Assembly (NCBI GenBank): GCA_902728285.1
Contig: CACVBU010000757.1
Coordinates: forward strand, 408,900 to 472,899
Direction of reading: 5' to 3'
From: Clytia hemisphaerica
Taxonomy: Eukaryota > Cnidaria > Hydrozoa > Leptothecata > Clytiidae
Length of the DNA stretch: 64,000 bases
Position 1 is the first letter of the stretch, and the number at the start of each line of letters is the position of its first letter. The position numbers were made by a program, and so were the translations under genes. Positions 22,035 to 62,586 of this stretch are shown here, piece by piece. The notes under the pieces are model-generated. The model had not been told where the DNA came from and made no database searches. It saw only the letters and a list, made by a program, of their open reading frames with translations.

Positions 22035-24450
22035 AGGGATGGGTATGCCCGGCTCGTCTGAACATTTACAAGAGCTAATGTGTCGTATTTTTGGAGATTT
22101 AATTCAGCAAGGAATTGTTATTATTCTTGCTAACGATGTTCACGTTGTTGGAAACACCATCGAGGAACTTTTAGAGAATTGGGAAAAGGTGCTCCAACGA
22201 CTCTCCTAAAACAATCTCTGCTTATCCGCTGCCAAGACCGTGGTCTGTCCAGTAGAAACAACAATCCTTGGCTGGAAATGGAAAAATGGCACATTATCAC
22301 CCTGCGTCCACAAGACATCACCCCTAGCTTCCGTCAAGCCACCAGCAACATGCACATCAATGAGATCGTTCATCGGTGCATTTAAAGCCCTTGCTCGTTG
22401 CATACCACGTTACTCTTCGATCGTTGCACCACTGGAGGATTCCATTAAAGGCATGCAGGGCCAGCAAAAGATACACTGGACGGACGAACTGAGGACTCCA
22501 TTCCTTTGATGCCAAGAGGCTGTCAACTCACCCAAAACGATCACCATACCTCGACCCGACGATAAGCTTACATTGACAACAGACGCTTCTCCAGTCAACC
22601 AAGGTTTAGCCGCTACACTCTTCCTCGATCGTGATGGCAAACGTCATATCGGCGGATTCTTCAGTTTTAAACTAAAGTCTTGTGGCCTTGTGAACATTAA
22701 GCCCTTGCCATATCATCCGCTCTTCATCACTTTGCTCCATACATACGAGACTCTCGCCACTCTACTCAAGTGCTGACCGACAACGAATCGTGCTGACCGA
22801 CAACGAACCGTGCAAACCGACGATTAAGTCAAGGAAAGTTTTCCACCTCGAGTCGCGTTTCGACCTTTCTTGCCACACTCAGCGAATTCAACGTAGAAGT
22901 TTGCCACATCAGTGGTTTATCCAACCATTCGAGCGATTTTGGTTCTCGTAACCCGAACGAATGCCGCGACAAATCGTGCCAAATTTGCAAGTTCGTACAA
23001 GAGACAGTCGATTCATTGGTTCAGCAAGTACCGATCGACGACATCCTTTCAGGATCCGCTAGAATGCCTTTCCTCAACAATTCTTCTTGGCACTCTGCAC
23101 AACAAGAATGTCCCTCCTTACGTCGTGCATTCGCCCATCTACAAAAAGGGACACGTCCACCACGGAAGGCGCGACACATTCAAGACGTTCGAAAGTACCT
23201 ACGCGTCGCTACAATCTCTGCCAATAATCTCCTTGGCGTCAAGAAGAATGACCCTTACGTCCACCAACGACAGCTGATCGTGGTACCATCCGCCATCCTC
23301 CCCGGGCTTATCACCGCCCTTCATATTCAACTCAATCACCCAACCCGTATTCTACTCCAAAAGGCCTTTGATCGCCATTTCTATGCTATAAATAGCATTT
23401 CTACAATCGAGTCTGTCACATCAAGCCACACTTTTCAATCCATAATGAAACTTCTCAACGAAACTTACGAGCAAACTTCAACAACCCTGCCACACCACCC
23501 AGGAAAGATGTTCTCTGCCGACATTTTACGCCGCACAAAACGAAAAATCTTTGTTTCTCGCGATATTTTCTCGAGCTACACTACCGCCGTTTTTATTCCC
23601 GACGAAAAATCTGAAAGTCTTCGTTCTGCTCTTCTATCTGCCACTTACCATCTCAGAACAACTTCTACAATCATTTGTGTCGATGCCGCCCCTGGCTTTC
23701 AGTCTCTCAAGATAGACAAAAGTTTATCATCTGCCGGTATTTTAATTAACTTTGGTAAAAAATAAAAACAGTAACGCAACAATCAACAAGGGTATTCAAG
23801 AGCTCGAAAATGAACTAATCCGTGTTGAGCGAGAGGGGAAGCCATTAACCCCGCTTGCTCTCGAGCAAGCCCTTTACAACCTCGACACACGTATTCGATC
23901 CCGTGGTTTGTATGCGAAATAAATCATCTATCGACGAGATCAATCAACCGGCAATGAAATCGACGTGAAGGACAACACACTTCTTCATCAACACGAGCTT
24001 CTCCGACAACGAAACCATCAACCCAGTGCCCGATCCAAAGGCCGAGGCGGGGATGCCGCTAAAGATGCTACCGTCCAAGTCGGGGACTTGGTATTCATCA
24101 AACAAGAAGGCTCCAAGCATAAATCTAGCGAGCAATATATCGTTACGAACATTGTTGGCCATATGGCTACAGTTCAGAAGTTCGATAATTCACGTTTCAT
24201 GTCTCGAAAGTACAATCTACCTTTGACACGTATATACCCCGCAACTCCCCGCCAACGACTATACTTCCACGACTGGGACAACAACCATTTCGACGACTTC
24301 ACTTCATCTGACGAGGAAACAACTCTTCAACCAGATGACACCCCTAACATTTACGGTGCTGACCCTGAGGAAGACACCAACAATCGTGCGAGACGCAATG
24401 TTAGGCGCCCACGGTATCTTGATGATTATGTTTTAAATATTGAAGGGTGA
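22035..24450 (+). pseudogene. LTR-retrotransposon pol (RT end, RNase H, integrase, C-terminal tail), decayed
   Basis: Frames in order: RT tail GMPGSSEHLQELMCRIFG ... LANDVHVVGNTIEELLENWE (the usual catalytic Asp pair is degraded to AND), connection RSFIGAFKALARCIPRYSSI ... WTDEL, RNase H start TLTTDASPVNQGLAATLF, then an integrase region in 23016-23765 with ALHIQLNHPTRILLQ (H-x4-H side of the zinc site), MFSADILRR (first catalytic Asp), ICVDAAPGFQSL (second Asp) and, after a frame change, NKGIQELENELI (catalytic Glu region). The tail has GDLVFIKQEGSK and ends NIEG-stop at 24450. Several stops and frame changes make it a pseudogene. Family: a Ty3-like pol type common in marine invertebrates (recollection). 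No gag or 5' LTR was recognised. A purine-rich tract follows near 24567-24582. Confidence 0.8.
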
Positions 24451-24582
24451 AGTGCTGGTAACCTCTCCCCTTATTTCTTGTTTATTTTATTTGCTTACGT
24501 TTGAAATAGCGGACAGATTGAATGCACCATTTGTATATAGTTTTGGTTTTGTTTGGATTTTGGACAAATGGAGAACAGAAAA

Positions 24583-26660
24583 TGTGTGTTTAATCTTTTA
24601 TGGCTACTTTCATTTAGATTCGCGTTACCATTGTCTTTTCTAAGATAATTTTATCATGCGAGGAACATCTTACATGTTGACTTAAAAACAATTACAAATT
24701 TAACCAACCATAAATCATCTTGATCATTCAAAATTCATGGTAATTTACTAAAATTTAGGTAAAGTTCTTGTGTTTCAAATATTACAGAAGCTCTAAAAAT
24801 CGTAAATATATTCTGGATGTAATTATTGACATTTTAATCATCATTACTTATTCCTGTTTGAAAGATGTAGGTAAAAAGACAAAATGACTTCAGGTCCTCA
24901 CTTTGTAGTGTGTCAAATTTACAATGCAAAATCAAGGATATTTTCAATCTGAATTTCGATCAAAACTGAGGTTCTGACTTTGCAAAAAATGTGTGTTTAA
25001 TCGTTTATGGCTACTTTCATTTAGATTCGCTTTGCCATCGTCTTTTCTAAAATAATTTTATCATGCGAGGAACATCTTACATGTTGACTTAAAAACAATT
25101 ACAAATTTAACCAACCATAAATCATCTTGATCATTCAAAATTCATGGTATTTTACTAAAATTTAGGTAAAGTTCTTGTGTTTCAAATATTACAGAAGCTC
25201 TAAAAATCGTAAATATATTCTGGATGTAATTATTGACATTTTAATCATCATTACTTATTCCTGTTTGAAAGATATAGGTAAAAATACAAAATGATCTCAG
25301 GTCCTCACTTTGTAGTGTGTCAAAATTACAATGCATAAGATCAAGAAAATTTTCAATCTAAATTTCGATCAAAACTGAGGTCCTCACTTTGCAAAAAATG
25401 TGTGTTTAATCGTTTATGGCTACTTTCATTTAGATTCGCTTTGCCATCGTCTTTTCTAAGATAATTTTATCATGCTAGGAACATCTTACATGTTGACTTA
25501 AAAACAATTACAAATTTAACCAACCATAAATCATCTTGACCATTCAAAATTCATGGTATTTTACTAAAATTTAGGTAAAGTTCTTGTGTTTCAAATATTA
25601 CAGAAGCTCTAAAAATCGTAAATATATTCTGGATGTAATTATTGACATTTTAATCATCATTACTTATTCCTGTTTGAAAGATGTAGGTAAAAAGACAAAA
25701 TGACTTCAGGTCCTCACTTTGTAGTGTGTCAAATTTACAATGCAAAATCAAGGATATTTTCAATCTGAATTTCGATCAAAACTGAGGTTCTGACTTTGCA
25801 AAAAATGTGTGTTTAATCGTTTATGGCTACTTTCATTTAGATTCGCTTTGCCATCGTCTTTTCTAAAATAATTTTAGCATGCGAGGAACATCTTACATGT
25901 TGACTTAAAAACAATTACAAATTTAACCAACCATAAATCATCTTGATCATTCAAAATTCATGGTATTTTACTAAAATTTAGGTAAAGTTCTTGTGTTTCA
26001 AATATTACAGAAGCTCTAAAAATCGTAAATATATTCTGGATGTAATTATTGACATTTTAATCATCATTACTTATTCCTGTTTGAAAGATATAGGTAAAAA
26101 TACAAAATGATCTCAGGTCCTCACTTTGTAGTGTGTCAAAATTACAATGCATAAGATCAAGAAAATTTTCAATCTAAATTTCGATCAAAACTGAGGTCCT
26201 CACTTTGCAAAAAATGTGTGTTTAATCGTTTATGGCTACTTTCATTTAGATTCGCTTTGCCATCGTCTTTTCTAAGATAATTTTATCATGCTAGGAACAT
26301 CTTACATCTTGACTTAAAAACAATTACAAATTTAACCAACCATAAATCATCTTGACCATTCAAAATTCATGGTATTATACTAAAATTTAGGTAAAGTTCT
26401 TGTGTTTCAAATAGTACGGAAGCTCTAAAAATCGTAAATATACTCTGGATGTAAGTATTGACATTTTAATCATCATTACTTATTCCTGTTTGAAAGATGT
26501 AGGTAAAAATACAAAATAATTTCAGGTCTTCACTTTGCAGTGTGTCAAAGTTACAATGTAAAATCAAGGAAATTTTCAATTTGAATTTCGATCAAAACTG
26601 AGGTCCTAACTTTGCAAAAAATGTGTGTTTAATCTTTTAAAGCTACTTTCATTTAGATTA
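24583..26660 (+). repeat. 407/409-bp satellite, five full units, alternating A/B types
   Basis: Units start at 24583, 24990, 25399, 25806 and 26215, with a sixth cut off after about 40 bases. Lengths run 407, 409, 407, 409, 407. Units 1 and 3 share ACAAAATGACTTCAGG and ATCAAGGATATTTT; units 2 and 4 share ACAAAATGATCTCAGG and AAGATCAAGAAAATTTT. So the array is a repeated A-B dimer of 816 bases. Unit 5 is more diverged. Each unit starts TGTGTGTTTAATC and ends ACTTTGCA, followed by AAAAA. Confidence 0.92.
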
Positions 26661-27051: not shown

Positions 27052-27466
27052 AAACAGGCAGGATTTGATGGTTCTGGTGAATGTGATGGTTAAATTGATG
27101 GTTCTGGTGAATTTGATGGTGGCATTGATGGTTGTGGTGAATGTGCTGTAGGAGTTGATAGTTTTGGTGAATTTGCAGCAGGAGTTAATATACTGATAAA
27201 TTGTTATTGAGATGTTATTCATGGATGTAATAACAACACGTTCATTAACTAGCAAAAAATTTCAGATTAACCATAACTGTATTTTCATTACATCCATGAA
27301 TGACATCTCAATAAAAATTTATCAAATTATTAACTCCTGTTGCAAATTCAGCAGAATTTTCAACTACTACAACCATTCATCACAACCTTCAATGCCACCA
27401 TCAAATTCACCAGAACCATCAATAACAACATCAAATTCACCAGAACCATCAAATCCTGCAGCACAT
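27052..27466. repeat. 415-bp inverted repeat at the start of the 30-bp minisatellite
   Basis: The left side contains minisatellite units on the minus strand (GATGGTTCTGGTGAATNTGA). The right side has the same units on the plus strand. The mirror axis is near 27260, flanked by TTACATCCATGAATGACATC and its inverse. Confidence 0.8.
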
Positions 27467-28440
27467 TAACCAGAACCATCAACTCCTGATGACCATTCAC
27501 CAGAACCGCCAACTCCTGCTGCACATTCACCAGAATCACCAACTCCTGCTGCACATTCACCAGAATCACCAACTCCTGCTGCACATTCACCAGAACCACC
27601 AACTCCTGCTGAACATTCACCAGAAGCTTTAACTACTGCTACACATTCACCAGAACTACCAACTACTGCTGCACATTCACCAGAACCACCAACTCCTGCT
27701 TTACATTCACCAGAACCACCAACTCCTGCTGTACATTCACCAGAACCACCAACTCCTGCTGCACATTCACCAGAACCACCAACTCCTGCTGCACATTCAC
27801 CAGAACCACCAACTCCTGCTGTACATTCACCAGAACCACCAACTCCTGCTGCACATTCACCAGAACCACCAACTCCTGCTGTACATTCACTAGAACCACC
27901 AACTCCACCATTGCATTCACCAGAATTACCAATCTCCCGCTGCACATTCGCCAGAATCAACAACTTCTGCTGCCCATTCACCAGAACCACCAACTCCTGC
28001 TGGACATTCACCAGAACCACCAACTCCTGCTGTACTTTCACCAGAATCATCAACTCCTACTGGACATTCACCAGAACCACCAACTCCTGCTGTACATTTA
28101 CCAGAATCAACAACTCCACCATTGGATCCATCAGATCCATCAACACCAGCATTATATTCACCAGAATCACCAACTCCTGATGCACATTCACCAGAATCAC
28201 CAACTCCTGATGCAGAACCTCCAGAACCATCAATCTTTGATTCATATTCACCAGAACCATCAATTCCACCATTTCATTCACCCAAACAACCAACTTTACC
28301 ATCACATTCACCAGATCCATCAACTCCACCATAACATTCCCCCAAATCTCAAATTCCTACTGCACATTCACCAGATCTGCCAGGTCCTGCTGCAGAACCT
28401 CAAGATCCATCATCATCTGTTGCAAAAACACCAGAATCGA
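27460..28440 (+). repeat. 30-bp minisatellite, ~33 copies, reads as Pro-rich decapeptide
   Basis: The unit is AACTCCTGCTGCACATTCAC + CAGAACCACC. The plus frame reads PTPAAHSPEP repeatedly. The frame is broken by a stop near 27469 and a one-base shift near 27932. After the shift it runs open to a stop near 28332 (SPEPSIPPFHSPKQPTLPSH). It may be the relic of a Pro-rich coding repeat or a pure minisatellite. Minus-strand frames (VNVQQELVVL) are by-products. Confidence 0.85.
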
Positions 28441-33274: not shown

Positions 33275-33850
33275 CAGTCAGGGACAGTCGCCTTATTAGG
33301 AGACGCCTCCTGATTAGGAGACATGTAGGTCGCTTGGGGTCGCTTGATTAGGAGACCCGTCTCCTAGTTAGGAGACATAAAACTTTGATCTCAATTTTAA
33401 GGGCTTTAGGCTTTTCCACGCATTTTGAAACTAGTTTTAATGGGAAGAGCAGCCTCGAATTGGTAAAGTTTTAAAAAAATTATCAAAATTTCTCGGTGCA
33501 ATCGATCACAATCCTAATATAAAGCTCTACAAGGAAGCCCCTCTTGATTTTTTTCATATCCGCCATTTTTCTTTTTGAGACGCTTTTGTTCAGAAGATAG
33601 ATTCTTACTTCTGATTGGTTCTTATGGATTATTAGAATTGTGATTGATTCCACCGGTGGATTTTTCTGAAAATCACCATATGGAATCAATTTTTTGTGTT
33701 CTTTCCGTTGGGAGCAATCAAATCATTCGCAGTTTGCTCGTTCACGAGATAATTACACCCGTCTCCTGATTAGGAGACGTGAACCTCCTGATTAGGAGAC
33801 GGGTCTCCTAATCAGGAGGCGTCTCCTAATAAGGCGACTGTCCCTGACTG
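33275..33850. mobile_element. 576-bp TIR element with TTAGGAGAC-repeat termini
   Basis: The ends are inverted: CAGTCAGGGACAGTCGCCTT, then ATTAGGAGACGCCTCCTGAT. A 5-base duplication CTCAA lies at 33270-33274 and 33851-33855. Inside both ends the palindromic word CTCCTGATTAGGAG recurs several times. No coding capacity. Confidence 0.85.
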
Positions 33851-34640: not shown

Positions 34641-35870
34641 TGGTTCCTTCTTAAATGTAAATACTTTTTTAAATTACACTTTTTTAGAGGAGGCATTGGA
34701 AATTCCATGTTTTTCTCATTTTTCAGAAAATATCTTAGAAATCCCAAGTTTTTCAAAAATCATTTTGACTTAAATTCTGTGTTGCCCCCCTCCCATTTAC
34801 GGATTGGAATGGCAGGCATTTGCATACGCTTTGGAACAGGGGCAGGGGTACCAAATTTTCGATATTATCAGTGCACAAATACAATGTGGACAGCCGCAAT
34901 AGTGGTTTAAATTTTCTTATCTATCGCGTGGATACAAAATAGGGGATGCATAAGATTTTTTATATTGTGGCTGTAAAATCAAAAGGTCTACAGTATTACT
35001 GGTATTTTATTGGTTTGATTGTCATTTGACGGGCTAGTTTAAAACGCAGGTCACAATTTCTCTCAAAAGAAAGTGTTAATAGAGCAACAGTTCTCTGAGG
35101 CCAGGAAGATTACATCATTTAACCCAGAATTCCCTCTCACCAAACCATTTTCAAAAATTGAACCAGGAGGGGGAGTGGGTCTGAGTTTACCCTTAAAATT
35201 CAAGAACCTTTGTTTTAATACCAGATGCGTCAAAAAAAGCAGTGGCACAAAACAAGTCGGGAGAAGTTTTAACTTTGGCGAGAACTGAGTTGGGTGTAAT
35301 CAGTGAAAAAATGACCACCCTGGAGAGGGTTTTCAGACAGATACTAATAATCTTTTTTTTTCTTTCTTTACAGTGTCCTGGTCAGTTCAATCAACCTTAA
35401 AGGCATACTGTAGGCAACAGAAGGTCAATACTGGTACCCAATTTTAGGTGAGTTCTCTGTCACTTTCACAGATTGAAGTGGAAGAAAATGCTTGAGTGAT
35501 TCTAAATAATCACACTTTTTCCAAAAACATACCTGAACTTTACTATGAGCGTACTGAGGCCACTTTTTTCATCTACTCTTCAAGCCCTACCAGTTGGTCA
35601 TATTAGATATGAGAATTACAGACCTTCAAATTTTCGTTTGTAAAGGGGACCCTTGGTGACCATTTCAGCCCGGGGACCCCCGTGGGCCTGTTTGGCCCGT
35701 CAACCCTGTGGATTTCTACGTATCAGTGGGAATAAAAAACACTAAGAGAATTTTCTATTGAAAGGTGTTGGGACAGCAAGTCATGGCCTGGTCTATTTCC
35801 CCAATATTATCTCGTTTAGACTAACATGACAGAGGTTTTAAATATATAATCATATAGATGGTATGAATTA
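34641..35870. other. no gene recognised
   Basis: AT-rich DNA with two G-rich patches (near 35160 and 35680). No exon or repeat end was convincing. Confidence 0.4.
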
Positions 35871-38156
35871 TTGATACATACATTTCTTGCGAAGACGATG
35901 CAATTTGATAAACCTAATGTTAAAACATGTCCTTCCAATATCCTTCCTATTTATTTCCACACTAAAGGTCTTGAGTTTATTCAGCTCAAAAACATTCATC
36001 GCAAACCTTGTGTGAATTCGAAACTCCCTGAAAAACTTCAAGAAGATCCACCATCAATTGTTTATTCTCTAACTCCTACGATCAGAAATAAAATCTTTAA
36101 TTATAAAGAAACTGTTGATTCCATCAATACAACAGACCTAGAAACTTTTGGCACCAACCTTACATCATGTGATTTTCATAACTCTTCTTTTATTGATCAA
36201 CACCATGTACTTGGTCATGTCATGACCGGGGATCTAAGTTTCATTAAAGATAATCATTTGCGAAAATTGATATCTAAAGGACCAAATTATCGCGAACCTC
36301 GAAATATCAGTTGGAATAAATGTAGAGATGTTATTTCTGGTGGTTTGGATAGTTTTGTGAATAAAACTTCAGCAAAAATTAATGAGACAAATTAAAATTT
36401 TCTTCCGTGGAAAGATGAAGTATTAAACCAGGTTGATGCTAGATCTCATCCCTCAAAAAGAAGACCAAGTACAAAAAAGTAAGCTCAGTGCTCAAGAGAA
36501 AAGATGTCATTGACTATTTAAATGAACTTCACACAAATTTTCATTGTTCCCATTGATAAAGCTGCTAATAACGTTGCATTTATTTGTAAACGTTTTTATA
36601 TTGAAGTGATTTCGAAGTAGATTGGGATATTGGGTACAGGAAATGAAACATAAGTTAGGATTGATCGGGGTAAGGCAGAGATTGTAAATGAAATAATGTT
36701 GGTTTTTCTAAACGCCTTCGTCTTGCTATTTCTGAGAAGGACTTGGTTCTTCCTAGTATCTATTGGACTCCAAAGATACACAAGAATCCAACAGGAAAAC
36801 GATTTATCATTGCTTCTAAACGTTGTTCAACCAAATAAATTTCCAAATCAGTTAGTCTTGTTTTTAAACTGATCTACCGTCAAGTTGAAAATTTTCATAC
36901 CAAAGCCAAGTTTTTGAGTCATTACAACAAGTTTTGGGTAATTCAAAATTGTGAGCCGGTTTTAGAGTCTCTTAACCGAATCAATAAAAAGAAGAATGCT
37001 AAATCAATTTCGATCTTTGATTTTAGTACATTGTACACAAAGATTCCTCATGACAAGCTGATTAAAGGGGAGGTCGTCAGTAGTCCGACACTTTCTAGTC
37101 CGACAGTAAAAATGTCCGACGTTGGATTTGACGAATGCGTCAGTATTCCGTCAACAATTTTGTCGGACAACGAGTAAACAAACAACATATAAATCGCTGA
37201 AGAGGAGACACGTCTTTTATAAGAAACCACGTTCCGACTTTGAGGTTGGGCCCCTAAACCCGACTTTTCTTAAATTTTGGTAAGCTTATTAGGATTATGC
37301 TTTCAAGAGTCAAGAAATTGGATTTAGCTGTTTTAATTTATTTTATAGATTCGGACTATTTTACTGTCGGACTAGTGACATGCACCCGATTAAAGAACTT
37401 TCAGAAGTCATTGATTTTGTTTTTGATGCTGGCAATTGTAAATACATTGCTATTTCGAAAAATGATAAAGCATACTGGTCAATAACAAAACCCAAATCTT
37501 CTGTGTCCTTTACTCAAAATTCGTTGAAGACAGCTATGAAGCATCTTATTAAAAATTGTTTTTTCAAGGCAGGTTACATTATTATGTGTCAGGTGATTGG
37601 AATTCCCATGGGAATTGATCCAGCACCGTTTTGGGCTAATCTCTTCCTCTACCAATATGAACAACGGTACATGAGCAAGCTCATCGAGGAAGATAAGGTT
37701 AAAGCTCGCCATTTTCATTCATCAAAGAGATTCATTGACGATTTGTGTGCTATCAATGATGGGAACTTGTTTCAATCTGTGTATGGAGAAATCTATCCAG
37801 ATGAACTTGAACTCAAAATTGAACATTCTGGATCTCATGCTTCTTTTCTAAACCCAGATATTTCCATCAAAGACGGGATTTTTATTTACAAGTTGTTTGA
37901 TAAGCGCGACGCTTTTCCTTTTTCTATAGTTTGAATGCCACATAAAGATAGCAACATGCCTGAATCCATTTTTTATTCTTTATTTGTTGGTGAACTTCTC
38001 AGGATTGCTCGATCAACGTTACTTTTCGAGGACCTGAAAGTTAAAGCTAAAGTTTTCATTGAAAGAATGCGCCGTCAGGGTGCTGATAACGCAAAGCTAG
38101 ATTGCAGTCTTCGTAGGGTGATTGTCCGTCATATTTCAGAATTTGCAAGATTTCAC
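35871..38156 (+). pseudogene. Penelope-like retroelement reverse transcriptase, broken and split by a MITE
   Basis: 35871-36395 carries the region before the RT core (VLGHVMTGDLSFIKDNHLRK, GPNYREPRNISW). 36540-37060 reads through several frames: IVPIDKAANNVAFICK, YWTPKIHKNPTGKRFIIASK, FDFSTLYTKIPHDKLIK. After the nested element the frame continues ELSEVIDFVFDAGNCKYIAI, QVIGIPMGIDPAPFWANLFL, RFIDDLCAIND (catalytic DD) and IYKLFDKRDAFPFSIV, then a stop at 37932-37934 where the 63-kb copy has Arg. T-K-I-P-H and G-I-P-M-G are typical of Penelope-like RTs. No GIY-YIG endonuclease was recognised. The 3' end is cut off at 38157 by a hAT-like terminus. Confidence 0.75.
37068..37387. mobile_element. 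320-bp MITE inserted in the Penelope-like RT, 8-bp TSD
   Basis: GATTAAAG lies at 37060-37067 and at 37388-37395. Removing the insert plus one duplication restores the open frame ...DKLIK-ELSEVIDF... exactly. The ends carry repeated AGTCCGACA words (GTCAGTAGTCCGACACTTTC on the left, TGTCGGACTAGTGAC on the right). Confidence 0.92.
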
Positions 38157-43933: not shown

Positions 43934-46900
43934 ATGAATAGCCTCGTGCAGTACAAAAGAAAAATGGATGTCATTCATGTCGGAGGTGTATATTATTGCG
44001 CAAACTGTCTGGCACAATTTAAAAGAAAGTACAATGCACAGCGTCATTTCAAGGACTCCCATGTCTCATCAGAAGCGATACCATTTCCAGATAGCCAACA
44101 AGAATATATTGCTTCGGGAGAAGATGATTTCATGAGCAGGAGCATTTCATCAGGAGCATTTAGATATGTCAAACATTCAGTTGAGATCTTTAATATTCGG
44201 CCTTTTCTGATATATTTTTCTTTTTAATGTCAGGAACCCTTGATGAAGCTAACAGACAGAGGAATGAATTGTGCCCTCAACAAACCATCACAAAATCGCA
44301 ACGAAAACACGCCAAAAGGAAAATTGATGAAGGTATACATATTATACTCTCTAGTCTCTAACAGTAGAGGGCTTCCATATTTCATGTAACTACATACATG
44401 TTAGGTTGTATAAACTGCAATCCGTGCCATAATATATTTGCACTTTTGGCTAATTTACCATTTTTCGAAAATTGAAGTTCGAGCGAGAATGTCAATTTTA
44501 GGCCCTCAACTTGATTTCATCGATTATTTCGATCTGGGAGGGATTTATTGGTTTCTAGGCTATATTTCAAGCCCTACTGGACCATTTTTGAACTTTTGGA
44601 TCCTCAGATCCTAAGGTCCTAAGTCTTAAGTCTAGCGTTAAAACTCAGAGTTAAAACTCTACCCTTCGAACCTACTTTAGAGCACTTACAAATCGATTGT
44701 GGTTTCAAAACACCCCGGTGAATTTCCCTTTTGTGCCAAGTATTTTGTCCTTGATTGTCTTTGAAAATTAAAAATGCCGACTTTTGCTCTGCGGGGGGTC
44801 TAAAATTAGGAGAAAACCCCTTAAATGTGAAAAATAACCCTTTTCCAACCATTTTGAGGCATTTCCATTAGGTCAAAATCAATTTTTTGTGAAATATTTA
44901 ACTTTTTGAAAAGGTGCAATTTACGAAAAGTCAAAAAGGTGAAAATTTCAGAAAATTTTGACTTTTTTTCAAGTTTTAGCCCCTAAAATTGACGAAAGGG
45001 GGATTTTGAGCCCAAAAAATTGCTTGAAACTTGAAATTAGACCCCCCGCTGAGCAGAATTTGGCATTTTTCAGTTTCTGAGACAATCCGTGCCATAATAT
45101 ATTTGCACTTTTGGCTAATTTACCATTTTTCGAAAATTGAAGTTCGAGCGAGAATGTCAATTTTAGGCCCTCAACTTGATTTCATCGATTATTTCGATCT
45201 GGGAGGGATTTATTGGTTTCTAGGCTATATTTCAAGCCCTACTGGACCATTTTTGAACTTTTGGATCCTCAGATCCTAAGGTCCTAAGTCTTAAGTCTAG
45301 CGTTAAAACTCAGAGTTAAAACTCTACCCTTCGAACCTACTTTAGAGCACTTACAAATCGATTGTGGTTTCAAAACACCCCGGTGAATTTCCCTTTTGTG
45401 CCAAGTATTTTGTCCTTGATTGTCTTTGAAAATTAAAAATGCCGACTTTTGCTCTGCGGGGGGTCTAAAATTAGGAGAAAACCCCTTAAATGTGAAAAAT
45501 AACCCTTTTCCAACCATTTTGAGGCATTTCCATTAGGTCAAAATCAATTTTTTGTGAAATATTTAACTTTTTGAAAAGGTGCAATTTACGAAAAGTCAAA
45601 AAGGTGAAAATTTCAGAAAATTTTGACTTTTTTTCAAGTTTTAGCCCCTAAAATTGACGAAAGGGGGATTTTGAGCCCAAAAAATTGCTTGAAACTTGAA
45701 ATTAGACCCCCCGCTGAGCAGAATTTGGCATTTTTCAGTTTCTGAGACAATCCGTGCCATAATATATTTGCACTTCTCAGGTAAGTTATGGCATGTCTCA
45801 AAAACCTGAAAATTACCATAATTTTTGAAGGCCATTAGCCGGCAGAAAATGAGGAAACCAATGGTTTGCTACGGAGGATACCGTGATGTAGTTTCGCTGT
45901 AGGGGTGTTACCTAATTGTTTACGCCCTTATTTTCGCGAAAAATCGCAAAAACTAAAAAATGCTGACGTCAGCAAAACTTGTTTTTTAAATATCCCCAGT
46001 TTGGCTAATAGTAGAAATATGAAATTTGGACCAACGTTGAATATCATTAAAATGATCATTTTGCAAAAAAAAACTTTTCGAAATTTTGCTGTCGTCAGCA
46101 GAAATCAGCAAAATACGAAATCTTGCAAAAAAGTGCTGATGTCACCTAAATTTCAAAAAAACTTTCTTGCAAAATGATCCTTTTAATAATGTGCAACTTC
46201 AGTCCAAATTTCATGTTCCTATCTTTAGCCAAACTGGAGATATTTAAAAAACAAGTTTTGCTGACGTCAGCATTTTTTAGTTTTTGCGGTTTTTCGCGAA
46301 AATAAGGGCAAAAACAATTAGGTAACACCCCGACAGCGAAACTTCATCATGGTATCCTTCATAGCAAATCATTGGTTTCCTCATTTTCTGCCGGCTAATG
46401 GCCTTCAAAAATTATGGTAATTTTCAGGTTTTTGAGACATGCCATAACTTACCTGAGTTTTGGCTAATTTACCATTTTTCGAAAATTGAAGTTCGAGCGA
46501 GAATGTCAATTTTAGGCCCTCAACTTGATTTCATCGATTATTTCGATCTGGGAGGGATTTATTGGTTTCTAGGCTATATTTCAAGCCCTACTGGACCATT
46601 TTTGAACTTTTGGATCCTCAGATCCTAAGGTCCTAAGTCTTAAGTCTAGCGTTAAAACTCAGAGTTAAAACTCTACCCTTCGAACCTACTTTAGAGCACT
46701 TACAAACCGATTGTGGTTTCAAAACACCCCGGTGAATTTCCCTTTTGTGCCAAGTATTTTGTCCTTGATTGTCTTTGAAAATTAAAAATGCCGACTTTTG
46801 CTCTGCGGGGGGTCTAAAATTAGGAGGAAACCCCTTAAATGTGAAAAATAACCCTTTTCCAACCATTTTGAGGCATTTCCATTAGGTCAAAATCAATTTT

Positions 46901-49900
46901 TTGTGAAATATTTAACTTTTTGAAAAGGTGCAATTTACGAAAAGTCAAAAAGGTGAAAATTTCAGAAAATTTTGACTTTTTTTCAAGTTTTAGCCCCTAA
47001 AATTGACGAAAGGGGGATTTTGAGCCCAAAAAATTGCTTGAAACTTGAAATTAGACCCCCTGCTGAGCAGAATTTGGCATTTTTCAGTTTCTGAGACGTC
47101 TTTGAAAATTAAAAATGCCGACTTTTGCTCTGCGGGGGGTCTAAAATTAGGAGAAAACCCCTTAAATGTGAAAAATAACCCTTTTCCAACCATTTTGAGG
47201 CATTTCCATTAGGTCAAAATCAATTTTTTGTGAAATATTTAACTTTTTGAAAAGGTGCAATTTACGAAAAGTCAAAAAGGTGAAAATTTCAGAAAATTTT
47301 GACTTTTTTTCAAGTTTTAGCCCCTAAAATTGACGAAAGGGGGATTTTGAGCCCAAAAAATTGCTTGAAACTTGAAATTAGACCCCCCGCTGAGCAGAAT
47401 TTGGCATTTTTCAGTTTCTGAGACAATCCGTGCCATAATATATTTGCACTTTTGGCTAATTTACCATTTTTCGAAAATTGAAGTTCGAGCGAGAATGTCA
47501 ATTTTAGGCCCTCAACTTGATTTCATCGATTATTTCGATCTGGGAGGGATTTATTGGTTTCTAGGCTATATTTCAAGCCCTACTGGACCATTTTTGAACT
47601 TTTGGATCCTCAGATCCTAAGGTCCTAAGTCTTAAGTCTAGCGTTAAAACTCAGAGTTAAAACTCTACCCTTCGAACCTACTTTAGAGCACTTACAAATC
47701 GATTGTGGTTTCAAAACACCCCGGTGAATTTCCCTTTTGTGCCAAGTATTTTGTCCTTGATTGTGAGAAGAAGTGGGATGTAGATGGAAATAAAATAGTT
47801 TATTAGAAACTTCACCTCATTCCTCCGTTATTAGCCTCTTTTTGGTACCTTTTGAATATTTATTTATTTGTCTCTCTAGAGGAGGAGGAGGAGGAGGAGG
47901 AGGAGGAGGAGGAGGAGGTGAACCTTCCCTTAGCACAGGGAATAGGCCCTAACTTAACTTAGGGTTCACAGCGCTATGACAAATAAAAAGTATAGTAAAA
48001 ACGAAAACATTAAGTGCAAATGATAAACTAAATATAACTATCAATAACATTTTTCCATTCCACACGATTCAAAGCTTTCCCATACCACTCACATTTCAAT
48101 ATACCAACTTTATTCAAACTTTTGTAAACTCCACGCCCATACGTGAATTCAGGGGCCCCGCGTGGACGCCTTTCACTAACCCAGCATGTCAGCATCTTAC
48201 GGGGCAAACGATCAGAGGGCATTCGGGTTAGGTGCCCTACACGGCATATGGTGCGGACACAACGAGCATGAAAAACTCTCAACTTTCTATAAACAATTTC
48301 AGTAAGGCACCAGTGCTCAGAGCCATATAACAAAATCGCCAGAACAAGGCCTTCGTAGACAGATTTTTTTGCTGCGAACGAAACATTAGTAGAACGGAAT
48401 AAACAATTTCTCAAAGCTCCAAACGCACTGCTGGCTGCTTTTATTCTCGACTCGACGTCAAGGGTATCTTTACAATCACGCGATAGGATTGACCCCAGGT
48501 AACAGAAACGATCGACGATCGGCATATGGGAAGCATCATCGATTTTGACATTACTAAGATTCGTATTATCGAAAGACAGGGGATCAGTATAGGTTTGGTT
48601 CGGAGCAGAAACAAACAAAATTTCAGATTTAGAACCTTTCTCTTCGGTACCAACATGGATTTCTAGACCGAATCTTAGAAAATGCTTGACTAGTGGTGGA
48701 AGGTAGGTTTCGACAGAGCTTCTTGATGTGAATAGAACTCCGGTGTCGTCAGCATACTCAGAGTCCGGTAACGAAAACTGTTCACATTTTTTAGTTGAAG
48801 GTCGTCTACCGGTTAGGATATCGTCAAACTTGGTGTGAAAGATACAGACTTCTCGTGTGTGAGTGGTTCTCCAAGACATCATTACAGCAGCAAGGTAGAA
48901 AATGAAAAGGAGTGGGACCCAGTATATCACCCTGTTTGACACCAATTATACTTTCGATCCTTTTAGTGATGTCATTTACAACAAACTTAACTTCCACATT
49001 TGCGTGAAGTGATTTAAGCAGACGTACAAGTTTATCAGGGACACCAAAAATATATAACACTTCCCAGAGAAGCTCGCTCGGTACTCGATCAAAGGCTTTG
49101 ACCAGGTCGAGAAATAATATCCAAGTCTCTTGGCCATGTTCCCTGCGCTTTTTCATTGCCATTTTTACTGTGAAGATCCCGTCAACACATCCACGCCCAG
49201 GACGAAAGCCGCACTGGGGTTCATGGTCAAGGGTTTCTACAATTGGGCTGAGTCTATTATGAAGGATGATAGCGATAATCTTGTAGGCAGATTCTAACAA
49301 CATGATCCCTCTGTAATTTCCCGGTAGGCTTAGGTCTCCTTTCTTTGGTAGAATCTTGAGAAGACCAGTTTCCCATTCAGAAGGGGGGTTTTCAGAGTCC
49401 CAAAAATTACGAACAATAGTTCTTAAAAAGGTAAAGGTAGATTCATTCTACGAGAGTGCTTTCCAGACTTGGGGAGTGATTCCAGAGTCACCAGGTGCTC
49501 GTTCCTTGAGGTTGCGAACGGCTTTCCGAATTTCATCATCATCCTTATCTGGCACCCGATGTAGAAATTTTCTTCCGACACGCTAAAGCTCTGAAGGTCG
49601 GGAAAATTTTCAACATCTGGAAGAAATACATTACGGAATTTCGCCTGACCGCGTAATTTTTTAGAAAAATGGGCCCGAGTGCAATTTGGACAGGGAAGGT
49701 GTCATGGCCGACAAAATTTGGGTCAGAAAAAACTTCAAAAGGTTTCACGAAATAAATTCAAATACAAAACCTTTTGGAGAAGGAATCATGCAAAATATTA
49801 TCATTCTTTTCACAAGGAGATCATGTAGAAATACTCAAATAAGTATTTTTCCTTCTTTAAACTTATCACAGAAGCAAAAACAAAATAGAAATAACATTGT

Positions 49901-52900: not shown

Positions 52901-55900
52901 TATTTTAGAATTTGGGTGATACAAACTATGAACAGCACTTATAACTACATACTTCAATTAACTTTCAGTTTCACCCAATGCAAATGCAGTAGAATCTCCC
53001 CTCAAAATTTGAAGTTGTGAATATCTCAAATTATAAAGTCTGAAAGTGGAAGCTCAAACAATGATATTTTTCTTTCAGTGGAAAGCAAGAAAGACACAAA
53101 TGTCCATCTTGGAGACAGCTTCGTCAGATTTGTAAGATTCACTAGTTGAGATTGAATAGTATATTAAGAGAGAGAATCATGTTAGTTTTAATAAGATAAG
53201 AGTTTTAATAATAAGATATGATTTTTTAGTTAAAATTTCTAACAAATATCATTTTAGTAAGATATGATTTTTTAGTTAAAACTTCTAACAAATATCATTT
53301 TATTTCCAGACCTCCTCTCGCCAATATACAACAATCATCATCTCCATCTTCGACTCTGAGACACTCGGCATTATCAATGGCTAATCAAACTAATGCTCAG
53401 TAAGTTTCGTATTCTCAGTCTTTGATCTCTGATCACTCATTTCCTCACTGATTTCACTAAAATTTCCGCACTATCAAATGATCACTTAAGGGGGGGTTTC
53501 AGGGGGTACCCGATTCCGCAATTCCGCCAATTTTTTCTCCAATTTCCGTCAAACCGTCTTAAATTGAACCAAAATTCTGTCACCGAAAATTCCTTTGAAA
53601 TTCAATATTTTTGTCGAAAATTCCGCAAATTTGGAATATTTACCAATTCCGAAATTCCGCAATTTTTTTTGCTAAATTCTGTTTTTCCGCACTAAAATTG
53701 TCTGATTTTCCGTCTCCGTCAGAGAACCCAATTTCCGTAATTCCGTCTAAATTTTCGCCAAATTCCGCCACTCCGTCCGAAAAATATTCTTCCGTACTAA
53801 GCAGTCAAAAATGAATACATAATACAAACTAAATTTTCTAAATTGAATTTTTCTAAGGAATGGTCATCATAACAGCAGCGAGACAACAAGAACGTATACG
53901 TAAGTGTTACATTTTAACATGAACAATTATTTGCATTTGTTACTTCGTTGTAATAGAGAAAACAGTATTTGCTTTCAGGTCCTACAAATCCAGTCTCTCT
54001 GTTTGGCATGCAAATACTATTAAAAGTAAAGTTTAAAAAAGGCATAAAGGTCAATGTTCCTGAAATATAATGAATTTCTTTATGTTTATTTGTTCAATAT
54101 CAAAGTCAAAGTAGTCTGTGTTAGAAAAAATCAATCTCAACTTAACTTTCTTTTTAGGCAATTATCGTCTTCAAATCATGCTTTTGGAGGAAGTCAAACA
54201 TGGTCTGGGTTCTCACTCAAGTAAGTTTTCTCTCAATGACTTTCCATTTCATGGATTTTTATAAATACAAAACATTGTTTATTTTGCCTAAATTTTTCAG
54301 TCAAGCCAATTCTATTGTAATTTTTGAAATATTTTATGAAAAACATCAATGTGATTCATTTTTTGAATATTTTTTTAGCTCGAATCAACAAGTTTCTTCT
54401 ATTTCCAACAACCTTGTTCTACCATCAGTGTAAGTCCTTGACTTTCCATTTTATTGATTTTTATCAATACAAAACATTGTTTATTTTGCCTAAGTTTTTC
54501 AGTCAAGCCAATTCTGTTACAACCCTATAAATACCAGATCAAAGGGGTACTGTCAAATTAATGACTACTGTAATTTTAGAATTATTTTATGAAAAACATC
54601 AATGTGATTAATTTTTTGAATATTTTCATTTAGCTCGAATCAACAAGTTTCTTCGAACAACCTTGTTCTACCATCAGTGTAAGTCCTTGACTTTCCATTT
54701 CATTGATTTTTATCAATACAAAACATTGTTTATTTTCCCTAAGTTTTTCAGTCAAGCCAATTCTGTTACAACCCTATAAATACCAGATCAAAGGGGTACT
54801 GTCAAATTAATGACTACTGTAATTTTAGAAATATTTTATGAAAAACATCAATGTGATTAATTTTTTGAATATTTTTTTTAGCTCGAATCAACAAGTTTCT
54901 TCGAACAACCTTGTTCTACCATCAGTGTAAGTCCTTGACTTTCCATTTCATTGATTTTTATCAATACAAAACATTGTTTATTTTGCCTAAGTTTTTCAGT
55001 CAAGCCAATTCTGTTACAACCCTATAAATACCAGATCAAAGGGGTACTGTCAAATTAATGACTACTGTAATTTTAGAATTATTTTATGAAAAACATCAAT
55101 GTGATTAATTTTTTGAATATTTTCATTTAGCTCGAATCAACAAGTTTCTTCGAACAACCTTGTTCTACCATCAGTGTAAGTCCTTGACTTTCCATTTCAT
55201 TGATTTTTATCAATACAAAACATTGTTTATTTTCCCTAAGTTTTTCAGTCAAGCCAATTCTGTTACAACCCTATAAATACCAGATCAAAGGGGTACTGTC
55301 AAATTAATGACTACTGTAATTTTTGAAATATTTTATGAAAAACATCAATGTAATTCATTTTTTGAATATTTTCATTTAGCTCGAATCAACAAGTTTCTTC
55401 GAACAACCTTGTTCTACCATCAGGGGGGAGCGTACGGGGTTTCTGATTTCCGAAATTCCGAGCATTTTTGACCTGATTCCCGATATTCCGCAAAAATATT
55501 TCACTAATTCCGATACCGAATTTTTTTTCTGTAGATAATTTTCACCTAAGAAAAACCTTTGCTATACCCCCATAAAACCAGATACAGTACAACTATTACA
55601 CCATAATTCTAGTTTCAAATTAAACACGCTTTACAAAATTAATTAAAATCATCGAGTAAAATCAAATCAATTTAAAATTGGGTGAAGAACTGAGTTGTTT
55701 TTGATTGCACGACCGAATCTTGATGATCGACCAATCATAAAGAATGACGCTTGGTCTAAGCCTCAAATTTCCGAATTATCTTTGTGACCGTCCTCAGCTT
55801 CACTGCCTCCACTCTCAAGATCGTAAGAATCTTCGTGTTCCTTCTCATCTTTGTCTTTGGCAAAATTTGTGGGTTCCTTCTCAGGTTCATTTTATCTTTG

Positions 55901-57968: not shown

Positions 57969-60900
57969 TCACTTTTCAACGATGTGTTGTGCAGTTTGTT
58001 GGACGTACTCTCGGATAACTTCTTGGCTACCATCTTTTATCTCTTCTGGTATTGGATCATCTAAAAGAACATCGTGATTTTTTATGGTTATTATATGCGA
58101 AATAATCTATCATAGTCAAGAGAATCAAATGGAAAAATTCATTAGAATAAAAAAACTGAACAATTTTGGCATTCTATTTCAGGGCCTATTTCGGAATTCC
58201 TATTTCTTTGTAGAAGGACTCGATGTAAATGACTAACACCAAAATAAGTTTACCTTCAAAGCTTTCCATCTTCAAATATTCCATCGTAATAGCAGCTATC
58301 TGTCCATCAAGCTCCTTGTCAGTGTATTCCGAGTAAGCATTCATGGCCTTGTGTGGTCCCTTTTAGGCATTGGACGTTTTCATGACATTCATTGCCCAAG
58401 TCACTGTTCCGTGTTCTTTTCCAGAACTTCTCACTCTGAAGAGCTTATCCTTGACCTATAAAATAAATGTAGCCCATTTTTTACTTCTGAAATTTCATCA
58501 CACACAGCACATTTTTCATAAAACTCATTGCTAAACATTGCTAAGGGTATTTCTCTCCAAGTTCCGAGTGACTGGGAGATGTGCTTAAATTTAACCCAAA
58601 CACGAACAATTAAAAAATATTTACCCTTACTAGCCTTTTGATGTAAAAATAACTGTTGTTACCTCGTAAAGAGTCTTTCTACAGTGCCAGTCAGCAAACT
58701 GAGGTTCGATACCTTCAAGTCGTTCGATGTCGGTGTGCCCGTCTTGTACTGCACGAATGAAATTAACAGCCCGTTCTTCGGTTAGTTGATCTCCCTCAAA
58801 TCTTATAGGTTTCAATATCTGAAAAAGAAACGAGATAATGTAAGATGTTTAGCATACTCCAGGTCACAATGCTGTTTGTGAAATACCTCCAGTATTAGCT
58901 AGAATTACTACATTGTCGATTGTAGCTGTGCGGCCAAATGAAGTTTCATGAGTTTGAAATTAATAATGTAAATGTAAGATTTTGGAATATGAACTACCTT
59001 AGAAATACCTTACTTTTTTTTCGTCGTCTTTGACAACCATTGGCACGTACTTTTCTTGGATTTCTCTCAAGATTTTAGCTATACCAGCAGAAGTGTTCTC
59101 GTTTTCGAAAATCAAGCCAAGTGGTACAACTGTTGATTTTTGAGACATTTCCTTCACAAATGGATGATGAATATGTCTTGAAATGTGTTTCTTTAGTGGT
59201 CCAAAAGCGGGTAAGTATGAGACGATTGACTTTGCAACAAGAAAGATGAATTCGTCTTTGAGTCGCTTGCAGGTGTCTGAGTTTGGTAGTACTCCGAATC
59301 GAGTGTAAAATTCTTCGGGTCGAGGATCTAAAAGAAAATGTAAAATAATCCGATTGGGATATAACCAGTCTATTCATACAACCAGACTCCCCTTTAAGTC
59401 GATTATAGAATTTCATGTTAACAAAGTATTAAACTTTCAAGTACCTTGTGAAGAGAGAACTCGATCTAAGATAGCAATATGATGAAACCAGTGATGATCC
59501 TGATTTAATTGATCATTCCCCTGATGCCGTGCCTCTACCTTGATATCAAGATTATCACCAACATCCTATGATATAAAAGTTTTAATTATTTTAACAAATC
59601 AACTTTCTAAAAGATGTTCTTACTCTCAGGTTCTTACTGGTTCTTCCAATTCTTAAAGATAAAAACCCCCTCAGTTGAATATGTCATTCAAAAGATTCTT
59701 ACTGCATATTCTAATGTTGCTGGTTCCTCTTCGGGTATGGTTTCTAGCGTCATTTTCCATTCTTTCACTTCTTCGTCATGGTTTTCTGCTAGTTCTTTGT
59801 TTTTTTTCAACGCTGTACGATACGAATTCGTAACGCATAATCTATTAAACCATTTAAAAGATTTTCTTTTGATTCCGGAGGCAAAAAACAGCTGGTCGTT
59901 ACGGTGACATATTACGTTGGAACGGCAATAAAAAAATCTGGCTTTGAAAAGTATTCCCAGGCATAACGCACGTGCTCCGATATGTCTTAAAAAAACAAGA
60001 AACAAAAATTACTAAACTGAAGATTGTCCGGACTAACAAATCCTATACATCGCTCATTACTTTCCCATACTATTTCCGGTATTATCAGAATGAATAAAAG
60101 GTCGCGCTCACGAAAAATGAAATAACTAAAACGAAAGAAAACAGAATTAAGAAACATACTTGTAAGGTGCGTCAATGCATTTAATAGCGCCGTTAATTGC
60201 ATGCGTTAAGGTAGGACATATCTTCTCTACTTCTTTGTAGAAAGCAAGGTCGTTGAATGTTACCAGGGATTCAACAGAAGCATCCTTCATGAATTCGTGT
60301 TGTTCGAGTTTTCCAATCTCATATGCGCACAATTCTGCGACTTTTTTATTGAAATCATCTGCTATCTTTGCGTTCGTATTTTCTTGGGTTGCCTGATTTA
60401 AAATATCAAAATTTAAACTTACTATAGCTGTAAACTATAAAAATAGATTCTGGAGTTTATAGCTTCGTACGGACTTTGGGCGGGCACAAGCAGAATGTCA
60501 TACTGTAAAACATGCGTTTTTATATGGGAAAAACGAAGAATTTCCGTTGCTCGTAATTTCCAGTCTTTACCCTTTGAAAATATTTCTGTATATGTAAAAA
60601 CATACCTGACTCTCCGGGTGATTCTTGTCAGTGGCTGACTCATCAACGTAACAATCATCTGCTGTATCTTCCAAATCAACATGTCTTCTTTTTTGAGAGG
60701 TATAGAATTTCTCCATTTACTTTTAAGTGAATCCCCTTTTTTAATATTTTTGAGCCCATTAAAACAACTTCGGCAAACTGTCGTTGTTTCATTTAGAGCA
60801 GAGTCGGTCTTAAATTTTATTCCGCATGCATCTAAACGTACAATGAAATTATCTGTGATCGCACTTTTTGGATCTTGATTTGTTTTGTACGGATTCAAAC

Positions 60901-61012
60901 AGAATTTACAAAATGAGCCAGGCATTTTTGTAAGTCGCTTATCGTACTTCTTCTCATCGTTAAGTAAGCCAAGCAGAAAATGGGAACGAAAACACATGGC
61001 ATGGAATTTCAT
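57969..61012 (-). CDS. DUF6589-like gene, 8 exons, with one frameshift and one stop
   Basis: Exons: 61012-60606, 60392-60160, 59985-59703, 59565-59445, 59327-59014, 58818-58663, 58455-58254 and 58060-57969, with canonical borders. Exon 1 has paired cysteines (FCKFC ... VCRSC), a likely zinc site. Later exons have CIDAPYK, AFGPLKKHISRHIHHPFVKE, PLGLIFENENTS, then PIRFEGDQLTEERAVNFIRA and LEGIEPQFADWH, then ELDGQIAAITMEYLKM and the C-terminus. G-D-Q-L-T-x-E-R ... R-L-E-G ... D-W-H is the signature of DUF6589 proteins, a family of unknown function that is expanded in cnidarians. Two defects: in exon 1 the frame after KKGDSLKSK is off by one from the acidic downstream frame (HVDLEDTADDCYVDES), and exon 7 has TAA after MKTSNA. 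So this is a recent pseudogene or the assembly has two errors. It converges with the zinc-finger gene. Confidence 0.72.
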
Positions 61013-61179
61013 TTTTCCTTCGCATGCAACTTAGTACTCAGTCTTTTTCTTGTGGCTCTCCTGTATTTTTAAATGGTACCCAGTGAATTCCAGTTACTGT
61101 ATCAATTAAATTATGAAAAAGACACAAATAAGGAGAGCCATCATTTGACTTCTCACTTATGTATGTTTTTTTTTATTTG

Positions 61180-62157
61180 CGGTTAGTGTAAAACACAGGT
61201 CACAGGTCACAGGTCACGGGTCACAGGTCACGGGTCACAGGTCACGGGTCACAGGTCACAGGTCATACAAATTACAGACCGGAAAACTGTAACGCACTCG
61301 TAACATACAACCCATAACATACAACTCATAACAAAAGTTCCTGAAATATTATAAATGTAATGTAATATCAAAATATGGTATTTAGAAGACTTTAAACGAC
61401 AAATCATCAACCCCAAAAATTGACAACAAATGACACTTAAATTATGTAAATAATGATGTTATCTCAAAGTATGAGGTTTTGTACACCAATTAACAATAAA
61501 ATATTTATCATGCGTAATAGGATGCCGACGCTGCAAGTGGATATAGATTGACAGGTTTTGAAAACAATAAATACTCCAAGAGAGCTGTTTTAGAGAGATG
61601 AAAATAGTGACGTCATTTTATCAAAAATACGAAGCAGGGGATAAAAATATTAAAACATTTATAAAATATAATCCCATTGACGCTATTTTCATCAATTCTT
61701 GTTATCATACCCAAGGTGATGCAGGAGATAAAATGAGATATGACATTAGTGATTGTGAAATAGCTATTTTCCTGTTAGGGGCTGTTTAATGCAAAGGTGA
61801 GATCGATATTCGAATATTTCTATATTCTTTGTATATAACATTCGTAACATGCGTATAACATTGAAAAGATAACTTTTTTGCATGTGTGATATAGATGTAA
61901 TATATAATACAAGTATTACAGGTCCGTGTTATACACGGCATAAAACGCGAAATCACGTGGTAAACACGTGGGTAGATTTTTAGCTTTAAAATAGTTCTAG
62001 ATCAACAAAATACCTTTGGAATTATATCATTGACATTAACAACTGTTTTTCAAACATTTTCTTTGTGTTTTACAGTAATCAAAGCTGACCTGTCAACACT
62101 GACCTGTGACCTGTGACCCGTGACCTGTGACCTGTGACCTGCGTTTTACACTAACCG
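61180..62157. mobile_element. 978-bp TIR element with ACAGGTC-repeat termini and 9-bp TSD
   Basis: Perfect 9-base duplication TTTTATTTG at 61171-61179 and 62158-62166. Inverted ends begin CGGTTAGTGTAAAAC, followed by ACAGGTC / ACGGGTC heptamers: about 11 at the left end, about 7 at the right. The interior has no convincing gene. It lies about 170 bases upstream of the DUF6589-like gene start. Confidence 0.92.
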
Positions 62158-62586
62158 TTTTATTTGTCGACCAATTAATTTATTTTTTCACACAAGAAAA
62201 AAAGTAGAGAAGCGGGCAAGCGTCGCAGCTTATTTTTTCTCCTCTCTTATTACTCAGCTGCTCCTTTATTTTCACTTGCGCCTTTCCAAGGCGTTTTAAT
62301 TAAACCTTTACGGAGGAGAGCTTTTTTTCAACAAATACGGCAAAAAATCCAGTAAAAAAATATTAAACCTTTCCGTTGGTGAAAAAGTAGAAAGAAAGAA
62401 AGAACCTTGGTTACACGCGCAACTCTCATTTTCAAAGGCAGTGAGATATAGTACAGTAAACCAAGGGAATGTAAATAAATCAGTTCTTCAAAAACAGAAA
62501 TGGTAGACCCGAGCTATGGCGAATAGCTATGGCAGAATCGAAGGTTTTGGTTGTGGCTGAGTTGTGGAATGACGACCCTGCCGGTG

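Follow-up and report, generated by a model that had tools for sequence, protein, structure and literature searches.

Several described transposons bear comparison with the element reported here. Muta1, a MULE of the mosquito Aedes aegypti, is a type 2 foldback element that transposes in yeast; its ends are described as a terminal motif with nine copies of a 12-bp subterminal tandem repeat, its duplications are 8-9 bp long, and more than 300 putative non-autonomous derivatives with variable repeat numbers are reported (PMC5225508). Tm1 of the root-knot nematode Meloidogyne is a Mutator/foldback family with variable, foldback-like ends, and 45 of its 53 complete elements are reported to have duplications of 8-10 bp, most often 9 bp (PMC3169594). 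For Galileo of Drosophila, it has been shown experimentally that transposase binding sites lie inside the terminal tandem repeats, and multiple short sites have been proposed to give specificity (PMC3688188).

The element that we analyzed lies in a 64,000-nucleotide stretch of DNA from the hydrozoan Clytia hemisphaerica, hereafter the window, and it belongs to a known kind of transposon. The original prediction, a mobile element each of whose ends carries a heptamer array pointing inward, was borne out by the termini, by a 9-bp duplication and by copies elsewhere in the genome. The element spans exactly 61180-62157 (978 bp; Table 1). TTTTATTTG forms a perfect 9-bp direct repeat immediately outside both ends, and when the same test at element length was slid over all 63,001 positions of the window, it gave one other exact coincidence. 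The 15-mer CGGTTAGTGTAAAAC with up to two mismatches occurs in the window only at the two termini of the element. The terminal 14-mer with up to three mismatches is no commoner in the window than expected by chance (9 versus 8.3), so that the two degenerate termini in Table 1 rest on longer matches. At the place of the degenerate second motif inside the right end, TGTAAAACA is also present in the related copies L035, L038, L042 and L044. The interior has about 30% G+C, the longest stop-free frame in the element is 72 codons long, and the two frames of the element that were tried gave no Pfam match. As a single strand, the element folds back end to end (z = -9.5 versus 20 shuffles).

Table 1. 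Parts of the element, its target-site duplication and a related degenerate terminus, in window coordinates
Feature	Position	Strand	Description
Left target-site duplication copy	61171..61179		9 bp, TTTTATTTG
Left terminal motif CGGTTAGTGTAAAAC	61180..61194	+	Perfect, 15 bp
Left subterminal array	61194..61265	+	10 heptamers CACRGGT and closing CA; AGGTCA/GGGTCA inward
AT-rich non-coding interior	61266..62066
Degenerate second terminal motif, inside right end	62067..62080	-	GATTACTGTAAAAC, 2 mismatches; 0/400 interior shuffles reach it
Inner part of right array	62086..62099	-	One intact in-register AGGTCA and one decayed unit
Right subterminal array	62100..62143	-	6 contiguous heptamers: CGCAGGT, then CACRGGT
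Right terminal motif	62143..62157	-	Reverse complement of left motif, perfect
Right target-site duplication copy	62158..62166		TTTTATTTG
Degenerate single terminus, same family	35032..35055	+	22/24 bases, one heptamer; 0/200 shuffled windows reach 22/24

The element had also been placed about 170 bases from a DUF6589-like gene. The distance holds, since the first in-frame ATG of the nearest minus-strand frame (60422-61030) lies about 168 bp from the element, but the identity of the gene is weakly supported: this frame has no Pfam match, and two pieces further along match DUF6589 below the cut-off (24.5 and 19.2 bits versus 27). The window contains other repetitive DNA as well, including an inverted-repeat element at 33275-33850, with perfect 48-bp arms and repeated palindromic GTCTCCTNATTAGGAGAC-like units, and a long, nearly perfect inverted repeat at 20511-21298 with nested 40-base arms (20511 to about 20820 and about 20990 to 21298). 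Tandem arrays are found at 24579-26659 (unit 407 bp), 54312-55423 (249 bp), 46771-47424 (327 bp) and 27435-28394 (30 bp, with open frames on both strands). Retroelement remains with reverse-transcriptase and integrase-core Pfam matches lie at 48824-49447 (-), 37293-37934 (+) and 22797-23765 (+), the matches at 37293 and 22797 being below the cut-off.

Searches of the genome (417,433,876 bases in 951 contigs) found the exact 15-base terminus 587 times (291 forward, 296 reverse), versus 4 times (3 and 1) for the reversed control, and TAAAACRCAGGTCAC 622 times, versus 11 for its control. The 100 terminus matches listed mostly form convergent pairs, many of them about 0.9 or 1.1 kb apart. Through the exact terminus, we assembled from the matches listed a set of 41 distinct paired copies including that of the window, in which degraded copies are under-represented because of this way of selection; duplicates (L023, L031 and L032, of L022, L022 and L029, respectively) and the unpaired termini L024-L027 were dropped before counting. 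All 41 copies are flanked by a 9-bp repeat, perfect in 33 and with one mismatch in 8, and none has a perfect flanking repeat of 7, 8, 10 or 11 bp. This length is within the 8-11 bp range of target-site duplications in the Mutator/MULE superfamily. Beyond A+T richness, the target sites have no fixed sequence and show no preference for TTAA. Copy lengths range from 420 to 5615 bp, with clusters near 0.9 and 1.13 kb. As 34 of the 41 copies are shorter than 1.3 kb and have no stop-free frame of more than 113 codons, the family has the features of a MITE: short, non-coding, of high copy number and with inverted ends. By inner sequence, 18 copies including that of the window form subfamily A, 21 form subfamily B, and 2 belong to neither. 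Median pairwise divergence is 7.4% in subfamily A (range 1.1-14.5%; 11 copies of 0.8-1.3 kb) and 4.0% in subfamily B (range 1.2-33.8%; 15 copies of 0.8-1.3 kb). A scan of viral contigs for the element gave no match, and about 0.18 Mb of the genome that was read directly contained no copy. An 18-base match in Paenibacillus was set aside as chance, since by our own arithmetic about 15 such matches are expected in 257 billion bases.

The 82 ends of these copies are of foldback type, with a terminal motif followed by tandem repeats of variable length. There are 2-10 units per end, the two ends of one copy often differ, and a single register is kept; with one mismatch allowed, none of the 82 ends has fewer than two in-register units adjoining the terminal motif. 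The original prediction depended on a heptamer spacing shared between copies, and the 7-bp register is indeed conserved. The 447 heptamers at these ends have the form C-R-C-R-G-G-T, with each of the five fixed bases present in 442-445 of them. The first R is A in 335 and G in 112, and 59 of these 112 G residues fall in the first units by the terminal motif, outside any half-site; the second R is A in 408 and G in 39. This conservation, with C, C, G, G and T fixed and two variable purines, is what would be seen for a binding site with the core C-GGTC.

The copy in the window illustrates how the arrays vary. If A denotes CACAGGT and G denotes CACGGGT, the left array, AAAGAGAGAA, consists of the 10 units A A A G A G A G A A, and the right array reads (CGCAGGT)AAGAA, 6 contiguous units followed by a decayed unit and one further in-register AGGTCA. 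With the exception of the first unit, the left array (AAAGA-GA-GA-A) can be derived from the right one by adding two GA pairs (14 bp, two units each), and a difference of whole pairs is the product expected of slippage or unequal exchange. With up to one mismatch, AGGTCANAGGTCA occurs 14 times in the window, always in the element (shuffles average 0.23), and there are likewise 14 cases in the element of two RGKTCA half-sites one base apart, the DR1 layout. AGGTCAAAGGTCA is absent from the whole element. The window copy stood out because no other of the 41 copies matches its 14 RGKTCA DR1 overlaps (1-11 in the others) and because it ties for the most heptamers (16). By the strict measure of AGGTCA DR1s it has 6, and three other copies have 7.

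Together, these data suggest that the family is probably a non-autonomous, MITE-sized DNA transposon of the Mutator/foldback kind, whose arrays are putative transposase-binding sites and whose AGGTCA content is a by-product. The inverted ends, the 9-bp duplications, the hundreds of dispersed termini, the 2 to 10 units at each end and the lack of coding capacity of its own all support this explanation. Its ends are built from a 15-bp terminal motif and 7-bp units (CRCRGGT) whose number varies. Mobilization would depend on a transposase that is encoded outside the element and most likely belongs to the MULE superfamily; this enzyme would read the terminal motif as its cleavage site and bind the heptamer array cooperatively. 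Repeated short, weak sites could thereby provide specificity and help in pairing the two ends, the arrays would grow and shrink through slippage or unequal exchange, and AGGTCA would simply follow from the sequence of the unit. By analogy with the described systems, the array most likely offers the transposase a series of binding sites, and the rows of heptamers most likely serve transposition rather than a response to hormones.

The likeness to the described systems concerns the build of the ends rather than their details. Muta1 shares with the family a short terminal motif followed by subterminal tandem arrays in both ends, and hundreds of non-autonomous derivatives, which in the case of Muta1 are described as having different interiors; unlike the family, which has a 7-bp unit and no linkers, it is described with a 12-bp unit and linkers of 3-4 bp, and it has a known active transposase partner (PMC5225508). 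Tm1 has composite ends of variable length with tandem motifs, mostly 9-bp duplications and MITE-like members in common with the family, but is described with a unit of about 14 bp, asymmetric 7-bp outermost motifs and an identified transposase of the Phantom type (PMC3169594). The terminal repeats of Galileo, which are reported to hold secondary sites for a transposase with a THAP domain, would be a functional analogue of the arrays, although Galileo belongs to the P superfamily and has foldback-like ends of more than 1 kb (PMC3688188). Rehavkus elements, reported from insects and annelids, resemble the family in their 9-bp duplications and in a minisatellite near the terminal inverted repeat; they differ in being coding and in that their minisatellite is described solely ahead of the 3' end (PMC6446971).

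The genome contains two further elements with 9-bp flanking repeats (ATGAAAAAA and CGTCGCGGC), at window positions 7237-8025 and at L017:539-2109, both with the termini GAGTCTGYTAAAT. The ends of the former are GGCGCGT-rich, and those of the latter carry arrays in which GCGTGGGTCA recurs in units about 18 bp long. From their sequences, a second foldback/Mutator-like family in the same genome is possible, and the same build with different units would support the reading of such arrays as transposase sites.

We infer membership in the Mutator/MULE superfamily from the length of the duplication and the build of the ends, since no transposase linked to these ends was found. A 9-bp duplication alone also permits other superfamilies, such as Merlin. 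The genome has at least 91 MULE-domain matches. On contigs C1-C139, none of the 13 MULE matches is within 5 kb of a terminus among the 100 listed, the nearest being 7.0 kb away, and three MULE neighborhoods contain neither an array nor a terminus with up to two mismatches within about 2.4 kb in either direction, a range that the ends of a longer element would exceed. The long copies did not qualify as autonomous candidates: L030 and L050, the two longest, owe their length to frames that resemble, as read by eye, a retrotransposon reverse transcriptase, and L045 and L049 have only short frames. That no MULE gene was found beside the termini where it was looked for counts in favor of mobilization by another superfamily with 9-bp duplications, Merlin-like or undescribed. 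So does the fact that GGTTAGTGTAAAAC occurs in no paper of the literature searched. A search of this literature on the themes of inverted repeats, tandem repeats, AGGTCA and MITEs gave none on this family by title among the matches listed; the family may be catalogued in repeat databases such as Repbase. We nevertheless consider another superfamily unlikely, since MULE genes are present in the genome and the combination of 9-bp duplications with terminal tandem arrays is the MULE/foldback pattern described from mosquitoes and nematodes (PMC5225508, PMC3169594).

The DR1 layout that the original prediction saw in the tandem heptamer is literally present, but any tandem with a period of 7 sets hexamers one base apart, so that the spacing is uninformative by itself. 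The only coincidence in the pattern is that the unit contains AGGTCA. The chance that a 7-mer tandem holds this hexamer in some frame or strand is about 0.3%, that for RGKTCA is 1.2-1.4%, and with one mismatch allowed it is about 6%. The forced spacing counts against the idea that DR1 receptors of the HNF4, COUP-TF or RXR type bind the arrays, which would then pass on receptor control, or absorb it, at hundreds of loci; judged from the sequence, this idea seems improbable.

This idea draws its support from the presence of DR1 overlaps in every one of the 41 copies and from the weight of the family in the genome as a whole. Perfect AGGTCA-N-AGGTCA sites with C as the spacer number 2379, versus 24 for the reversed control, and the other three spacers together give 148, versus 49, so that the C-spaced form makes up 94% of perfect DR1s (2379/2527). 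For 77 of the 100 C-spaced matches listed, an exact family terminus among those listed is no more than 150 bp away. One of the other 23 is in copy L028, whose near terminus has one mismatch, and several are arranged as convergent pairs with spacings of about 0.4-1.1 kb, pointing to copies whose ends are imperfect. Most perfect double sites of the receptor type in this genome thus appear to come from the family. Nuclear receptors are encoded as well, their DNA-binding domains giving 14 exon-level matches at about 11 places in the genome, and such receptors could meet the predicted sites in the arrays. A separate observation concerns the A- and T-spaced perfect DR1s: among the 100 matches listed, several are same-strand pairs about 7-8 kb apart (for example G000:C18:1311937 and 1319163, C244:335167 and 343358, and C472:2854314 and 2861498), an arrangement that would fit sites lying in the long terminal repeats of a retrotransposon.

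A precedent for the receptor idea comes from Alu repeats, in which sites for HNF4alpha and RAR have been described; there, too, a transposon family supplies many direct-repeat receptor motifs (PMC3252374; PMC1785376). The Alu sites differ in that they belong to a retrotransposon and were tested for HNF4alpha by binding arrays, as opposed to predicted sites in the ends of a DNA transposon (PMC3252374).

Conservation of the half-sites divides the two subfamilies. We compared 365 array-internal half-sites, in counts that describe a pattern rather than form a formal test, since units within one array are not independent. The spacer between half-sites is C in 362 of the 365. Of the 158 half-sites in subfamily A, 156 end in A, 119 begin with A and 39 with G, and the spacer is C in 155. 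This is variation of the sort that receptors tolerate, and it makes the pattern of subfamily A compatible with predicted receptor sites; it is no argument against them. Subfamily B differs in the last A, critical for receptors, which is retained in 144 of its 193 half-sites and replaced by G in 49, with at least one such G in each of the 21 copies; its spacer, a position to which receptors should be indifferent, is C throughout (193 of 193). Receptor-driven constraint would not leave such a pattern, and family-wide selection for receptor half-sites is rejected as the reason for the arrays, since subfamily B breaks them. AGGTCGCAGGTCA, found 411 times genome-wide and never in the reversed control, also argues against receptors, as does the absence of CAAAG from the array stretches of the window copy, the interior of which has some. 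By this measure, the family overall would not maintain receptor half-sites, which the subfamily of the window has in predicted form.

The arrays could also be passive minisatellites that were expanded in the ends by slippage and have no function for the transposon or the host. The unequal unit numbers at the two ends of many copies and the whole two-unit duplications by which the left array of the window copy exceeds the right one would fit this, but we regard it as quite improbable, because two diverged subfamilies keep in-register units after the terminal motif at every end, and because five of the seven bases are nearly invariant. If the repeats were passive, some copies should have lost them or have them in disorder, a comparison in which the choice by exact terminus under-samples degraded ends. 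CMITE of corals and other TTAA families can be dismissed, since the former, which resemble the family in small size, lack of coding sequence, inverted ends and an animal host, are described as piggyBac-related, about 100 bp long and with TTAA duplications, no terminal arrays being seen in that description (PMC2872659), as opposed to 9-bp duplications without TTAA preference here.

Both variable purines of the heptamer sit in CpG/CpA contexts. At CpG columns of the interior, transitions are about three times commoner than elsewhere, but the measure is biased: a CpG in any single copy sufficed to label a column as CpG, and transversions at these columns are therefore elevated as well (2.2 and 1.2 times). 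CpG decay may account for part of the purine variation; for the origin of AGGTCA, it is only suggestive. One could go further and suppose that a transposase-recognition unit coinciding with a receptor half-site is the source of nearly all perfect DR1s, that subfamily A, settled on receptor-compatible half-sites, could act as a receptor sponge or as distributed enhancers, and that decay from AGGTCG to AGGTCA may create sites as copies age. Built on sequence patterns, this extended scenario strikes us as very improbable.

For a transposon of a known kind, the one unusual feature of the family is that its C-spaced form dominates the perfect DR1s of the genome. A striking array of regulatory-looking motifs can thus arise from transposon architecture, as a 7-bp terminal repeat automatically resembles a DR1 array. 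In motif scans of this genome for nuclear-receptor sites, the family would dominate the results, and such searches therefore need repeat masking. If receptors do bind, the family would offer hundreds of replicated natural insertions for testing the transposon-driven spread of receptor control, which has been proposed for Alu repeats, here in another animal.
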